64,000 nt of DNA from Bacteroidota bacterium (GTDB lineage: Bacteria > Bacteroidota > Bacteroidia > NS11-12g > UBA9320): contig WGNA01000002.1 of assembly GCA_016124755.1 (NCBI GenBank), forward strand, positions 62,001-126,000, read 5' to 3'. Each line of letters opens with the position of its first letter. Within the stretch, counting starts at the first letter, position 1. Of the stretch, positions 1,734 to 58,398 are shown piece by piece. The notes under the pieces were generated by a model. It did no database searches. It had not been told where the DNA came from and saw only the letters and a program-made list of their open reading frames with translations. The translations under genes were made by a program, and so were the position numbers.

Positions 1734-4549
1734 TATCGACTGAGATACATGGATTTCTCCCTGTAAAGCTCTCTGAAGTATGGATCCTTAAGGTCCTTAA
1801 CAAAATAAATTGCCTCTCCGGTTGATTTCATTTCCGGCCCCAGTTCCTTGTTAACATTCGGGAATTTCTCAAAAGAGAAAACCGGTCGCTTTATGGCAAA
1901 ACCCTTTGGTTTCTTTTCTATTTTAAAATCACTTAGCTTGTTTTCCCCGAGCATAATCTTCGTCGCGATGTTCACATAGGGTACATCATACGCTTTACAT
2001 ATAAAGGGAACAGTTCGGGATGCTCTGGGGTTTGCTTCAATCACATAAACTTTTTCATTCTTTACTGCGAATTGAATATTGAGCAATCCTTTAATTTTTA
2101 ATGCATGAGCAATTTTGTGAGTGTACATCTCGATCTGATCCATCACATTTTCTGAGAATCCAAAAGGAGGCAGCACAGCAGAAGAATCTCCGGAATGAAT
2201 ACCAGCAGGCTCAATGTGTTCCATGACCCCGAGAATGTGTACTTCTTCACCGTCGCAAACCGAATCACTTTCGGCTTCTTCTGCTCTGTCGAGGAAGTGA
2301 TCAATCAAAATTCTGTTGCCAGGCAAATCTCCCTGAAGTTCAATCACAGCCTTCTGCAAATCCTCATCGTTGATCACGATTTTCATCCCCTGACCACCGA
2401 GTACATAAGACGGTCTTACTAAAACCGGGTAACCGACTTTGTTTGCGATTTCGATTGCCTCATACGCATTTTCAGCAACCCCATAATCCGGATACGGAAT
2501 ATCCAGTGTTTTTAGCAGATCAGAAAAAGATCCCCGGTCTTCAGCCAGATCCATGTCTGGAAATGAAGTACCAATTATAGGAGTTCCGTATTCATTTAAT
2601 TTTTGAGCCAGCTTAAGAGCGGTTTGCCCTCCGAGTTGAACGATCACACCTTCCGGCTTCTCGAGATCGATTATCTCCCGAAGATGTTCCCAGAATACCG
2701 GCTCGAAATAAAGCTTATTGGCCATGTCGAAATCTGTTGATACCGTTTCTGGATTGCAGTTCACCATGATGGCTTCGTACCCACATTCCTTAGCTGCCAA
2801 CAGACCATGAACACAGCAGTAGTCGAATTCAATGCCCTGCCCGATTCGATTCGGACCGGCACCGATTACAACAATTTTCTTTTTATCGGTTGGTTTTGAT
2901 TCATTTTCTCCATCGTAGGTAGAATAGAAATAATTGGTAGGCGACTCAAACTCCGCAGAGCACGTATCAACCATTTTATAAGAACGCGTTAACCCGAGTT
3001 CGTGACGCTTGGCATAAACCTCATCTTCGGTGCAGCCACCCATTGCGTGAGCAATCTGAAAATCTGAAAATCCTTTCTCCTTTGCAATTCTGAGTGTATG
3101 AGCATCAATATTCTGAAGCGTGAACTTACGAACATGTCTTTCGGTTTTTACCAGATCATAAATCTGCTCTAAGAACCATCGATCAATTTTAGTAATTTCC
3201 TGAATCGAAGTTATTGGCACACCCAAAGTAATTGCGTCCTTTATGTGGAAGATGCGGTCCCAACTCGGATTTTTCAGACTGTTGATCAGTTTGTCGAGGT
3301 TTCTTTCCTCCCATCCATCACAGCCAAGTCCCATTCTTTTTAGTTCAAGACTCTGACAAGCTTTCTGCAATGCTTCCTGAAACGAACGACCAATTGCCAT
3401 AACCTCTCCCACCGACTTCATTTGTAAACCGAGAGACGTATCTGATCCTCTGAATTTATCAAAGTTCCAACGAGGAATTTTTATGATGGTATAATCGATT
3501 GCCGGTTCAAAAAAGGCGGAAGTAGTTTTAGTAACCGGATTTTTCAGTTCGTCGAGATAGTATCCTATCGCCAGTTTTGCTGCAATTTTAGCAATAGGAT
3601 ACCCCGTTGCTTTCGATGCAAGAGCAGATGATCTTGAAACCCTTGGGTTGATTTCTATGGTGATAATATCTTCGTTCTCGGGGTTAACTGCGAACTGCAC
3701 ATTACAACCTCCAGCAAATGTTCCCATGCTTCTCATCATCTTAAAAGCCATGTCTCTCATATTCTGGAAACATGTGTCGCTTAATGTTAAAGCGGGTGCA
3801 ATGGTGATGGAGTCTCCGGTATGAATACCCATTGGATCGAGATTTTCGATGGTACAGATAACCGCGATGTCATCCTTCCCGTCCCGAAGAAGTTCAAGTT
3901 CATATTCTTTCCAGCCCAATACCGCTTTTTCGACAAGAACCTCATGAGTTGGTGATGCCTCCAGTCCACGCTTTAAGGCGCTGTCAAAAAATTCTTTGCT
4001 GTGAACAAATCCTCCACCGGTTCCACCCAAAGTGTAAGATGGTCTGATAACTAAAGGAAATCCCAGTAGCTGAGCCGCTTCTTTTCCTTCCAGAAATGAA
4101 TTGGCAATTTTAGACGGAGCAACGGGAATTCCTATTTCGCCCATGAGTTTTCTGAACTCTTCCCGGTTCTCTGTTTTTTCAATCGCATTGATGTCAACAC
4201 CGATAATACGTGTGTTGTACTTTTCCCAAATGCCCAACTCATCTGCTTCTTTGGCAAGATTTAAAGCGGTTTGCCCACCCATTGTCGGAAGAACAGCATC
4301 TATTTGTTGTTCCTGAAGAATTTTTTCAATCGATTCTGTGGTGAGCGGCAACAGGTAAATATGATCAGCCATAACCGGATCTGTCATAATTGTCGCCGGG
4401 TTGGAATTTATTAAAGTGACTGATATTCCTTCTTCCTGTAATGAGCGTGCAGCCTGACTTCCGGAGTAATCAAACTCACAAGCCTGACCTATAATGATGG
4501 GACCGCTACCAATGATTAGTACGGATTTTATTGAACTATCTTTGGGCAT
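1733..4549 (-). CDS. carB: Carbamoyl-phosphate synthase large subunit, lacking the C-terminal allosteric domain
   Basis: Makes carbamoyl phosphate from bicarbonate, ammonia supplied by CarA, and two ATP, feeding arginine and pyrimidine synthesis. Two homologous ATP-grasp halves are visible: the first opens with SGPIIIGQACEFDYSG, the second (from about residue 560) with GAGPNRIGQGIEFDYCCVHG; each carries its Gly-rich RPSYVLGG-type loop and the acidic Mg/ATP ligand stretch (EINPR and EANPR). At 938 residues it is about 130 shorter than the E. coli enzyme and stops just after the second ATP-grasp half, so the MGS-like domain that binds ornithine, IMP and UMP is absent. Shortened CarB proteins of this size are, as far as I recall, common in Flavobacteriia. 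carA is not adjacent. A promoter word lies 20 bases upstream and DUF4834 is coupled downstream. Confidence 0.97.
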   Translation of the reverse strand: MPKDSSIKSVLIIGSGPIIIGQACEFDYSGSQAARSLQEEGISVTLINSNPATIMTDPVMADHIYLLPLTTESIEKILQEQQIDAVLPTMGGQTALNLAKEADELGIWEKYNTRIIGVDINAIEKTENREEFRKLMGEIGIPVAPSKIANSFLEGKEAAQLLGFPLVIRPSYTLGGTGGGFVHSKEFFDSALKRGLEASPTHEVLVEKAVLGWKEYELELLRDGKDDIAVICTIENLDPMGIHTGDSITIAPALTLSDTCFQNMRDMAFKMMRSMGTFAGGCNVQFAVNPENEDIITIEINPRVSRSSALASKATGYPIAKIAAKLAIGYYLDELKNPVTKTTSAFFEPAIDYTIIKIPRWNFDKFRGSDTSLGLQMKSVGEVMAIGRSFQEALQKACQSLELKRMGLGCDGWEERNLDKLINSLKNPSWDRIFHIKDAITLGVPITSIQEITKIDRWFLEQIYDLVKTERHVRKFTLQNIDAHTLRIAKEKGFSDFQIAHAMGGCTEDEVYAKRHELGLTRSYKMVDTCSAEFESPTNYFYSTYDGENESKPTDKKKIVVIGAGPNRIGQGIEFDYCCVHGLLAAKECGYEAIMVNCNPETVSTDFDMANKLYFEPVFWEHLREIIDLEKPEGVIVQLGGQTALKLAQKLNEYGTPIIGTSFPDMDLAEDRGSFSDLLKTLDIPYPDYGVAENAYEAIEIANKVGYPVLVRPSYVLGGQGMKIVINDEDLQKAVIELQGDLPGNRILIDHFLDRAEEAESDSVCDGEEVHILGVMEHIEPAGIHSGDSSAVLPPFGFSENVMDQIEMYTHKIAHALKIKGLLNIQFAVKNEKVYVIEANPRASRTVPFICKAYDVPYVNIATKIMLGENKLSDFKIEKKPKGFAIKRPVFSFEKFPNVNKELGPEMKSTGEAIYFVKDLKDPYFRELYREKSMYLSR

Positions 4550-4569
4550 CGTTGATCTTTAAAATTCGG

Positions 4570-56879: not shown

Positions 56880-56903
56880 GTGGTGTGTGGTAAAAACCGG
56901 CGG

Positions 56904-56911
56904 CAAAGGTA
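56904..56911 (-). promoter_or_regulatory. Bacteroidota -7 promoter element (TACCTTTG) for the saccharopine dehydrogenase-like gene
   Basis: Exact TAnnTTTG on the minus strand, 24 bases before the ATG at 56879; it overlaps the longer reading frame, supporting the internal start. Confidence 0.45.
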
Positions 56912-57016
56912 TTTGGAGCGAACGAACAAAAGGTCAGGAAAAGAATGTGTTTCCGTTTAGAATGCTGACAAACCGTCAAAAAGACCGGGAGAAACGTTAC
57001 GAAACGGCAGAGGAAT

Positions 57017-57024
57017 TACTTTTG
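57017..57024 (+). promoter_or_regulatory. Bacteroidota -7 promoter element (TACTTTTG) for ssrA
   Basis: Exact TAnnTTTG 23 bases before the tmRNA 5' end at 57048. Confidence 0.5.
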
Positions 57025-57047
57025 TGAGCGACAATCGTACATCAATC

Positions 57048-57419
57048 GGGGCTGACTGGTTTTGACGGGAGGGCCAATTGACGTGTAAGCATGTAGAGCG
57101 TTGTGGGAAGAGCTCTTGAAACGGAACCCTCAAATCATAAACGGCGATTTTAATTACGCCATGGCTGCCTAATCTGAGAGATTAAGCATATTGCCATCCG
57201 CCCCCTGCGGCTTCGTTCGGGCTGCGGCAGATCCGGGGCGGTCGAAATGCCCGGATAGTGATGACTGATACCTGCCGGGTCATTACTTATAATGCAGGTT
57301 ACGGAAACGTTGAGGTTGGTACCGGACCTTACGCTTCCCGACAACAACCGGTATTAAACATGTAGAAAGCGCGATTCAATTCCATTCCGGACCCGGGTTC
57401 GACTCCCGGCAGCTCCACC
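57048..57419 (+). ncRNA. ssrA: tmRNA (SsrA), tag GDFNYAMAA
   Basis: The tRNA-like ends pair as GGGGCTG (57048-57054) with CAGCTCC (57410-57416). The D-arm-like start reads GGGGCTGACTGG, and the T-arm GGACCCGGGTTCGACTCCCGG is present. The tag reading frame runs from the resume codon GGC (57143) to TAA (57170-57172) and encodes GDFNYAMAA, which fits the GENNYALAA-like tags of Bacteroidota. A GC-rich hairpin CCGCCCC (57198-57204) / GGGGCGG (57235-57241) is part of the pseudoknot domain. CCA is not fully encoded: the last bases read ACCT. Rescues stalled ribosomes. Confidence 0.93.
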
Positions 57420-57422
57420 TTC

Positions 57423-57462
57423 GCCCGCCATAGCTTTTTCCTAAGAAAAAGCGACGGCGGGC
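57423..57462 (+). terminator. Long hairpin after ssrA, probable terminator
   Basis: Outer stem GCCCGCC (57423-57429) / GGCGGGC (57456-57462) encloses inner stem GCTTTTTC / GAAAAAGC with loop CTAA. It starts about six bases after the tmRNA 3' end. An A-run, not a T-run, follows on the + strand, so termination efficiency is uncertain. Same structure as the repeat unit described next. Confidence 0.5.
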
Positions 57463-57713
57463 AAAAAGCTTACCTCATCCGAAATCAATTGACAGAGCGG
57501 GCTCCGGCGGAGACACTCCACTCTTCACCCAAAGCTTTTTCCTAAGAAAAAGCGACGGCGGGCAAAAAACTTACCTCATCCGAAATCAATTGACAGAGCG
57601 GGCTCCGGCGGAGAAGCTCCACGCGTCTGCCATAGCTTTTTCCTAAGAAAAATCGACGTCGGGCAAAAAACTTACCTCATCCGAAATCAATTGACAGAGC
57701 GGGCGAAGGCGGA
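57432..57713 (+). repeat. Three 101 bp tandem repeats downstream of ssrA
   Basis: Units begin at 57432, 57533 and 57634, a constant 101-base period. The conserved part runs about 80 bases and holds the hairpin GCTTTTTCCTAAGAAAAAGC, the string TTACCTCATCCG, and GACAGAGCGGGC. The junctions between units (CACTCCAC, AGCTCCAC) echo the tmRNA 3' end AGCTCCAC. Decay is graded: the first hairpin is perfect, the third has lost one pair. Not a CRISPR: the repeat is long and the spacers are near-identical and short. Confidence 0.9.
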
Positions 57714-57832
57714 AAAAATACTCTGATTTAATGACGAACGATCAATCAACCGATTGCTTGAAAACCAATTAAACGCTTAAAAAATTAACTGAAGAATTAA
57801 AATCATCCTGGGATAAATATCTTGCAATTACA
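57714..57832. other. AT-rich spacer before the GIY-YIG gene
   Basis: Short stretch without a gene; I see a weak TATCTTGC near 57820 that may be a -7 element with one or two mismatches, and nothing else. With the repeats it makes a 412-base gene-free region after ssrA. Confidence 0.4.
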
Positions 57833-58072
57833 ATGAGTTGGGTTGTTTACATTCTGGAATGTTCAGACGGACTACATTATGTCGGGTGTACCTCTAATTT
57901 ACTCATTCGTTTAAGTTATCATGAAAAAGGAAGGGTTTCCTTTACCAGCACAAGATTGCCGGTTTCTGTGATTATCTATTTGACTTTTAACAATAAATAC
58001 CGGGCATATCAATTTGAAAAATATTTAAAGAGTGGTTCTGGCAGGGCATTTATGAAGAAGAGATTTTTATAA
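57833..58072 (+). CDS. GIY-YIG nuclease-domain protein (short, UPF0213-like)
   Basis: 79 residues, only the GIY-YIG domain. The motif reads WVVYILECSDGLHYVGCTSNL, the glutamate of the active site is in QFEKYLKSG, and the arginine in DLLIRLSYHEKGR-like segment (NLLIRLSYH). Such short proteins are common in several copies in Bacteroidota, often near RNA genes. Function unclear; structure-specific nuclease is the family guess. The stop overlaps the start of the next gene by one base (TAATG). Confidence 0.88.
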   Translation: MSWVVYILECSDGLHYVGCTSNLLIRLSYHEKGRVSFTSTRLPVSVIIYLTFNNKYRAYQFEKYLKSGSGRAFMKKRFL

Positions 58073-58398
58073 TGGTGGATTCCCCCATTCCCCCCTTCCG
58101 CAACTCCGGTTACGATTCCTTCATCAAAATCCTGATTAATTTGCTTCCCAAATTACAGTCAGTTTTGAACTTTATTAAATCGTATAAATTCCTGTTAATA
58201 GGTATCACCATCGGTGCGATCGCAGGCTATCTCTATTATTTCTATGTTGGTTGCAGTTCCGGAACCTGCGCCATAACATCCAAACCAATAAACAGCACCT
58301 TATACGGAGCAATGATGGGTGGACTTTTATTTTACCGCGAACCCAAGAGAAAAGGGAATTCGGAAACGAGTATATCTGAAACAAATTCTGTTGAATAA
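58072..58398 (+). CDS. DUF6132-like membrane protein
   Basis: 108 residues. One membrane segment (about 40-60, LLIGITIGAIAGYLYYF) is followed by the family core YVGCSSGTCAITSKPINSTL and a second short hydrophobic piece (GAMMGGLLFYRE). The CSSGTC cysteine pair and NSTLYGAMMGG match DUF6132, a Bacteroidota family of rhodanese-associated or membrane proteins of unknown role. The first 35 residues are unusual for the family, so the true start could be later, but no ATG is there. Coupled to the GIY-YIG gene. Confidence 0.75.
   Translation: MVDSPIPPFRNSGYDSFIKILINLLPKLQSVLNFIKSYKFLLIGITIGAIAGYLYYFYVGCSSGTCAITSKPINSTLYGAMMGGLLFYREPKRKGNSETSISETNSVE

Follow-up and report, generated by a model that had tools for sequence, protein, structure and literature searches.

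Tandem repeats behind a Bacteroidota ssrA gene as probable tail modules of a GIY-YIG-linked cassette family

Three tandem repeat units follow ssrA in the window, as the whole 64,000-nucleotide stretch of DNA that was analysed is called here. These units are probably ORF-less tandem copies of the tail module of a GIY-YIG-linked cassette family that would insert or multiply at tRNA and tmRNA 3' ends in Bacteroidota. In its complete form the cassette would comprise the module and a GIY-YIG gene of about 80 aa, and such a gene is found in the window after unit 3. The array itself would consist of nuclease-free copies that decay away from ssrA. Many of the genomes compared are drafts or bins.

The repeat array behind ssrA

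The ssrA gene (tmRNA, tag GDFNYAMAA) was placed by ARAGORN at 57048..57419 on the plus strand, and the Rfam tmRNA match (RF00023, 133 bits) covers 57048-57420. At the gathering score, Rfam reported only this tmRNA and one tRNA in the window, and no other RNA family. The string CTCCAC at 57413-57418 forms part of the last bases of ssrA and is the template copied by the repeat units. An array with a period of 101, 2.8 copies, 93% matches and a score of 486 was detected by TRF; the second-best array in the window scored 51. In the phase adopted by a preliminary description of this locus, the units occupy 57411..57511, 57512..57612 and 57613..57713 of the plus strand, and in this register they have 88, 84 and 89 of 101 bases in common pairwise. 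The tandem array proposed in that description is borne out by the TRF score and the in-register identity, and the repetition of CTCCAC at the junctions agrees with its claim that the units copy the ssrA 3' end. The period, which had been called exact, is 101 for the array as a whole, but CTCCAC occurs at 57413, 57516 and 57617, that is, at spacings of 103 and 101. Strings resembling the tmRNA terminus had been reported at each junction; the true end and two copies were found, but no clean copy closes unit 3, where ATACTC stands instead. A single hairpin per unit had been described as well. Hairpins are present, but there are two in each unit (A and B). When 57411-57730 was folded, none of 100 shuffles folded equally well.

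Of the three units, unit 1 has preserved the module best. The 5' arm of hairpin A is eroded in unit 2, which has a tmRNA-end copy at 57617-57622, and both hairpins are eroded in unit 3. The outward decay that had been noticed by eye is reproduced by model R1, which scores 64.8 (57420-57515), 38.0 and 21.5 bits outward from ssrA; because R1 was trained on first units, unit 1 of the window included, the size of the drop is inflated, and its E-values are rough. Scores also fall outward in L253 (80.7, 31.8 and 20.0) and L141 (73.7, then 42.4 and 43.9), and no such drop is seen in L245 (77.9-78.6) or L142 (86.6, 84.6).

A search of the 4.05-Mb genome with the 303-bp array returned a single locus, and the sole further match (43 bp, 84%) covers hairpin A only. 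Dispersal of the unit with no tie to ssrA, which the preliminary description had named as the observation that would speak against it, is thus absent. The 101-bp unit was rejected as a dispersed repeat, the hairpin core alone being dispersed. At the DNA level the unit was found in one of 58 order-level genomes, the window's own.

Palindromes of the type GTCCGCC-TTCGCTAAAGC-TACGGCGGAC were observed between genes in the same genome, in four loci near 1501 (L036, L041, L045 and L052; C4, C31 and C1) and in L038 (C26). These dispersed intergenic palindromes look like a module that has collapsed and combines TCCGCC, the end of a tRNA-Ser, with the inverse of that end.

Module anatomy and its match to the host RNA

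In Bacteroidota loci the module sits between the RNA end and the nuclease gene, in the order RNA 3' end, hairpin A, linker, repeat of the hairpin A 3' arm, and hairpin B. In its fuller layout, TTCG comes after the RNA end and leads into arm a and arm a', which enclose an inner stem-loop; a T-run, an AT-rich linker and a second arm a' come next. After a gap of about four bases, the distal part consists of the inverse of the RNA end and, about three bases on, a copy of the RNA end. The T-run (four or more T within 11 bases after hairpin A) is present in 19 of 24 units, the window's not being among the 19. Hosts in Bacteroidota are tmRNA, tRNA-Val, tRNA-Ser, tRNA-Ala and tRNA-Pro genes, and the closing copy differs between them: TCCAC for most tmRNAs and tRNA-Ala, GCCCAC for tRNA-Val, TCCGC for tRNA-Ser (L140) and CCCGAC for tRNA-Pro. 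Since unit length and sequence vary between lineages, homology of all units is argued from their anatomy.

All parts of the module apart from the T-run were identified in unit 1 of the window, with one mismatch each in hairpin B and the second arm. Hairpin A (57423..57462, plus strand) has an outer stem GCCCGCC / GGCGGGC and an inner stem AGCTTTTTC / GAAAAAGC; its pairing was assessed from the sequence and from pair counts over 23 units. The distal arm, a second copy of the hairpin A 3' arm (AGCGGG), lies at 57496..57501 of the same strand and was likewise assessed by pair counts. Hairpin B (57506..57521, plus strand) is formed by the inverse GGCGGAG, a 3-base loop and the tmRNA-end copy CTCCAC.

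Thirty ssrA loci were compared, 29 from relatives and the window's own. In another genus (G020) a similar hairpin comes right after the CTCCAC of ssrA and is followed by a GIY-YIG gene. In G013, of another genus in the same family (L010, reverse strand), the ssrA end and a terminator are repeated in tandem, with a unit sequence unrelated to that of the window.

Pairing was examined in alignment A4, which, like model R1, holds 23 units, L154 being omitted from the 24. In hairpin A, 97.7% of cells are paired, and double changes occur in 8 of 12 pairs (42 cells), a value reached in 0 of 500 shuffles. The second arm is 82% paired and has double changes in four of its seven pairs, with 5 of 500 shuffles as high on double changes. 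The number of further pair types was not above shuffles for either (311/500 as high for hairpin A, 496/500 for the second arm).

The match between parts was examined by permutation over 24 units, in tests that ignore kinship. When arms were swapped among units (2000 permutations), near-arm matches fell from 140 to at most 129 and far-arm matches from 110 to at most 104. Matches between the host end and its copy numbered 125, above a permutation maximum of 121, though this comparison is biased because the units were excised using motifs picked by eye. For the host end and the inverse arm the count was 132 with a permutation maximum of 133 (3/2000 as high), slightly above permutation. The stricter search for hairpin B is free of that bias: with a 5-mer rule, hairpin B fitted the RNA of its own locus in 13/37 cases, the RNA of a host with a different end in 5/660 trials, and a reversed region in 0/37. 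A looser rule (exact 6-mer, other arm with at most one mismatch) gave 12/37 for the own host, 18/742 for other hosts and 1/37 for reversed regions. Together the two rules recovered 19 of the 37 loci, the window by the looser rule only, and neither automatic rule found hairpin B in the other 18. Judged from these sequence matches, hairpin B tracks the host RNA.

Module copy number ranges from 1 to about 6. TRF on 14 other loci found module-scale arrays in eight, with 1.8-6.2 copies: L141 (139 bp x 2.8), L142 (138 x 1.8), L149 (132 x 1.9), L245 (179 x 3.6), L247 (163 x 3.1, behind tRNA-Asp), L249 (107 x 5.7), L259 (63 x 6.2, behind tRNA-Ser) and L262 (35 x 3.3, behind tRNA-Met). Within one genus, L249 has six same-strand R1 matches and L253 three. 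In L157, L141 and L142 the nuclease gene has a further module behind it, so the gene can lie within an array; no such module was found in the corresponding place in the window.

Among 395 genomes R1 matched 10, three of which are training sources besides the window's own. In genomes outside the training set, matches behind a tRNA or tmRNA were found in G136, G222, G253 and G171, where the match closes a tRNA-Asp array, and matches without an adjacent tRNA or tmRNA in G231 (three) and G162. A neighbouring RNA is likewise absent from one further match in G341 and from two in G000. The pattern CTTCGCYCKCCRWAGC gave 14 matches in 247 genomes. Four lie directly behind a tRNA or tmRNA, the window's among them, one follows a tRNA-Ser end fragment, and nine have no neighbouring RNA. 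The reversed pattern gave 21 matches, exceeding the 14 real ones, so the pattern alone proves nothing.

Two further loci deserve mention. In L135 (Seonamhaeicola) a second tRNA-Val-like copy, which ARAGORN did not call, a module and an apparently broken nuclease gene occupy about 4221-4560, downstream of the first set, as if the whole RNA-module-nuclease set had been duplicated in tandem. Behind the tmRNA of Aequorivita capsosiphonis (L146) a run of N begins inside the first unit, which suggests that such arrays break short-read assemblies.

GIY-YIG genes behind tRNA and tmRNA genes

The ORF after unit 3, in window sequence read to 58800, lies at 57833..58072 on the plus strand and encodes an intact protein of 79 aa with a GIY-YIG endonuclease domain (Pfam PF01541, E 5e-12; alignment A2). 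It has no stops and carries the conserved columns V5, Y16, G18, R26, H30 and E62. The AlphaFold2 model has a mean pLDDT of 97. The nearest solved structure, by both sequence (E 7e-14) and fold (E 7e-5), is that of UPF0213 (1zg2); in the fold comparison it is followed by Slx1 entries (E 0.004 or more). In phage and plasmid collections no tblastn match to the protein was found at E 1e-5. Two relatives were found in viral contigs, neither with an adjacent tRNA. At 57691-57719, upstream of the GIY-YIG gene, the TTGACA of the unit 3 linker and an AAAAAT 17 bases further on make a weak match to a sigma-70-like promoter. TTGACA is present in the linker of each unit, and the scanned stretch contains three sigma-70-like matches with 1.7 expected.

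PF01541 is present in all 58 order-level genomes. The matches listed for this set include 64 small members (one 49-aa fragment was excluded), and among these 28 lie at most 300 bp, and 33 at most 1 kb, behind a tRNA or tmRNA gene on the same strand. Among the same listed matches, 41 RNAs within 2 kb are on the strand of the nuclease gene and none is on the opposite strand. A second, named set was collected with a profile of the ssrA-type nuclease and consists of the best 80 of 145 relatives; here the RNAs near nuclease genes divide into 27 on the same strand and 0 on the opposite one. The RNAs near GIY-YIG genes are thus on the strand of the gene in 68 of 68 cases among the matches listed. As background, none of 24 3-kb loci of the window's own genome contains a tRNA.

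In the first 31 of the best 80 named loci, all with Bacteroidota titles except one from a Candidatus Levybacteria bin that is possibly misbinned, a same-strand RNA lies within 1.2 kb upstream in 21, and ARAGORN detected none at that distance in the other 10. Of the loci that seem to lack an RNA, some stand behind an RNA end not called by ARAGORN (L132, L137) and some behind an end fragment (L139, L148). Among the remaining 49, nearly all from other phyla, a same-strand RNA was found by ARAGORN within 1.2 kb in five and none in 44. The phylum search covered 395 genomes and, in addition to the window, yielded 21 matches; in 18 of these (16 of 19 loci) a tRNA or tmRNA gene lies at most 800 bp upstream on the same strand. 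As for the three exceptions, L245 lies behind an integrase gene and a fragment of an ssrA end, L250 behind a fragment of a tRNA-Ser end, and no RNA was detected for L261.

Records titled Thermodesulfobacteriota, Phycisphaerae and Omnitrophota (L165, L203, L169 and L174) also contain GIY-YIG relatives, at 130-232 bp from the tmRNA or tRNA-Lys that precedes them, and the association of GIY-YIG genes with RNA genes may reach beyond Bacteroidota. In the record titled Candidatus Levybacteria (L140) a module and nuclease gene stand behind tRNA-Ser, through transfer to a distant phylum or because the contig is misbinned.

Downstream, 10 nt or more of the RNA end recur exactly in 25 of 33 rows and in 0/33 rows of a reversed-tail control; three loci with two nuclease genes each are counted twice, and two of the 25 positive rows (L076 and L103, 11 nt) may be due to chance or to another tRNA. 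No such tmRNA-end copy was found behind the GIY-YIG gene of the window, where the longest exact match is 8 nt, the same as in the control. The window's tmRNA-end copies are just 6-8 nt long.

Members of the window's nuclease subfamily occur behind both tmRNA and tRNA genes. On a tree of 69 nuclease proteins the RNA type requires 26 changes vs 44.9 when shuffled, and none of 200 shuffles was as low; the tree has few columns and many open forks, near-copies inflate the clustering, proteins shorter than 60 aa or without an upstream RNA are left out, and L132 and L137 were labelled tmRNA by eye. By this tree, nuclease subfamilies appear to cluster by RNA type. Adjacent branches still switch between types (tmRNA, Val, Ala and Ser), a hint of movement from one RNA gene to another.

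Occupied and empty sites were compared at one tRNA-Asp gene in one genus; the window's genus is represented by a single genome among those searched. In L297 and L302 the site is empty, with only tRNA-Asp, a terminator and the next gene. In L295 it is filled by a nuclease gene followed by a partial copy of the tRNA end and a terminator, and the downstream sequence of this locus matches L297 at 79% over 1050 bp and L302 at 71-75% in two pieces. Two tandem nuclease cassettes with identical first 301 bases are present in L288. In L299 there are repeats and a tRNA-end copy 129 bp on, and no nuclease gene was seen between tRNA-Asp and the next gene; by its sequence, this locus would be the counterpart of the window array. 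L299 and L288 share a different following gene (78% over 678 bp). Since the following genes differ among loci, the clean empty-filled comparison is that of L295 with L297 and L302. An extra copy of the last 14 nt of tRNA-Asp was observed in L288 (G055) upstream of the intact gene, about 175 bases before its end. Three traits of a free-standing GIY-YIG homing endonuclease cassette were found: an intact GIY-YIG gene, occupied and empty sites (at tRNA-Asp in the one genus), and a subfamily that tracks the RNA type.

Origin of the array and related systems

Copying without any part for the nuclease has to be weighed first. A terminator region behind ssrA could have been multiplied passively by slippage or unequal recombination, the GIY-YIG gene being an unrelated neighbour. 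Such an origin would fit the greater likeness of adjacent units in the window (88 and 89 of 101 bases, vs 84 for units 1 and 3) and the homogeneity of units within genomes (96% in G474, 98% in L142). It is nonetheless unlikely, given that module and nuclease gene occur together at many RNA genes, always on the same strand where this was counted, that empty and filled sites exist, and that hairpin B tracks the host RNA.

Selection for hairpins that serve tmRNA termination, 3' processing or stability is a doubtful alternative. The covariation of hairpin A, the T-run that follows it in 19 of 24 units and the better preservation of unit 1 are in its favour. A terminator or processing array, as had been suggested earlier, accordingly fits most relatives; it does not fit the window, where 0 terminator-like sites were found at 56900-58100. 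Copy number also varies despite nearly identical linkers (one copy in L153, two in L142), and the decay of units 2 and 3 is unlike an array under selection.

The 3' end of ssrA had further been proposed as an attachment site of integrative elements, and this holds in relatives. Tyrosine-recombinase genes (Pfam) lie closely behind ssrA in G017, G052 and G018, and several other ssrA loci have an apparent one by eye. In G017 roughly 13 kb, with the integrase gene first, separate ssrA from a 21-nt copy of its end, and the module and the nuclease gene come after that copy. In G474 an integrase gene extends beyond the edge of the locus and is directed away from a fragment of the ssrA end, and four units follow the fragment. 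Both arrays start past the second RNA-end copy, so array and element are separate. That the units themselves are scars, end copies left by tyrosine-recombinase elements that went in and out of ssrA repeatedly, is very improbable despite the integrases and the 21-nt copy, for these arrays lie outside the elements, and the units have a two-hairpin anatomy of their own that recurs at tRNAs together with GIY-YIG genes and host-matched hairpins. Attachment cores as the bounds of the units were rejected too, the RNA-end copies of the G017 and G474 elements preceding the array.

For tail modules of a GIY-YIG-linked cassette, the following course may be envisaged. The putative nuclease would make its cut close to or at the 3' end of the RNA; from its kinship with Slx1 and UPF0213, what it recognises there may be near-palindromic DNA that is prone to form hairpins. 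If the cut is repaired from another copy, the module would be inserted or multiplied in tandem, and the RNA gene would be left whole because every copy brings the RNA end along. Unit 1 would be the terminator of the RNA gene in many relatives, which may be why it is intact while the outer units decay. The nuclease may also be a passenger.

The best working analogy for the tail cassette is phage SegB, reported to be a free-standing GIY-YIG homing endonuclease often encoded near tRNA genes, whose cuts lead through recombination to tandem amplification of tRNA-Tyr together with segB; no favoured tRNA type is reported (PMC13096335). SegB resembles the cassette in the GIY-YIG domain, the proximity to tRNA genes and the tandem amplification. 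It differs in acting in phage genomes and in amplifying tRNA-Tyr with segB, whereas the cassette lies in bacterial chromosomes, copies only the RNA end and has host-matched hairpins. Module arrays behind tRNA or tmRNA genes with GIY-YIG genes were not found in the open-licence literature, which is weak evidence, and SegB was the sole near parallel there.

Other systems share single traits with the array. At E. coli tyrT, 178-bp tandem repeats stand behind the tRNA gene (rtT RNA), each with a short copy of the tRNA 3' end. They are like the window array in being tandem units behind an RNA gene that each copy its 3' end; they are not known to have a nuclease gene or a host-inverse hairpin. Integrative elements at ssrA and tRNA 3' ends have the same target and RNA-end copies on both sides, but they need an integrase and kilobase cargo, and the two module arrays beside such elements lie outside them. 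UPF0213 (1zg2) and, next by fold, Slx1 are the structural neighbours of the nuclease; Slx1 acts on branched DNA with Slx4. REP/RAYT and MITE-like elements are short imperfect palindromes, and a palindrome like hairpin A is also dispersed in the window's genome. What sets the module apart is the link of the copies analysed with RNA 3' ends and with a GIY-YIG gene.

We tentatively suggest that tail cassettes form a new class of mobile element across Bacteroidota, one that remakes the host RNA end and its mirror image as a hairpin in each copy and that could spread or multiply by means of an Slx1-like GIY-YIG nuclease recognising folded DNA rather than a fixed sequence. Nuclease-free arrays would be its non-autonomous offspring, and the dispersed GTCCGCC...GGCGGAC palindromes may be further, collapsed offspring of the cassette.

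If true, this would account for the repeats that follow tRNA and tmRNA genes in a large phylum, and would unite small tRNA-adjacent GIY-YIG genes, tRNA-end copies and variable hairpin arrays in one system. It makes testable the homing of a nuclease by way of folded DNA at the ends of RNA genes and SegB-type nuclease-driven amplification in bacterial chromosomes. The ends of tRNA and tmRNA genes are hot spots of mobile DNA, so a resident that reshapes these ends may affect which elements integrate there.
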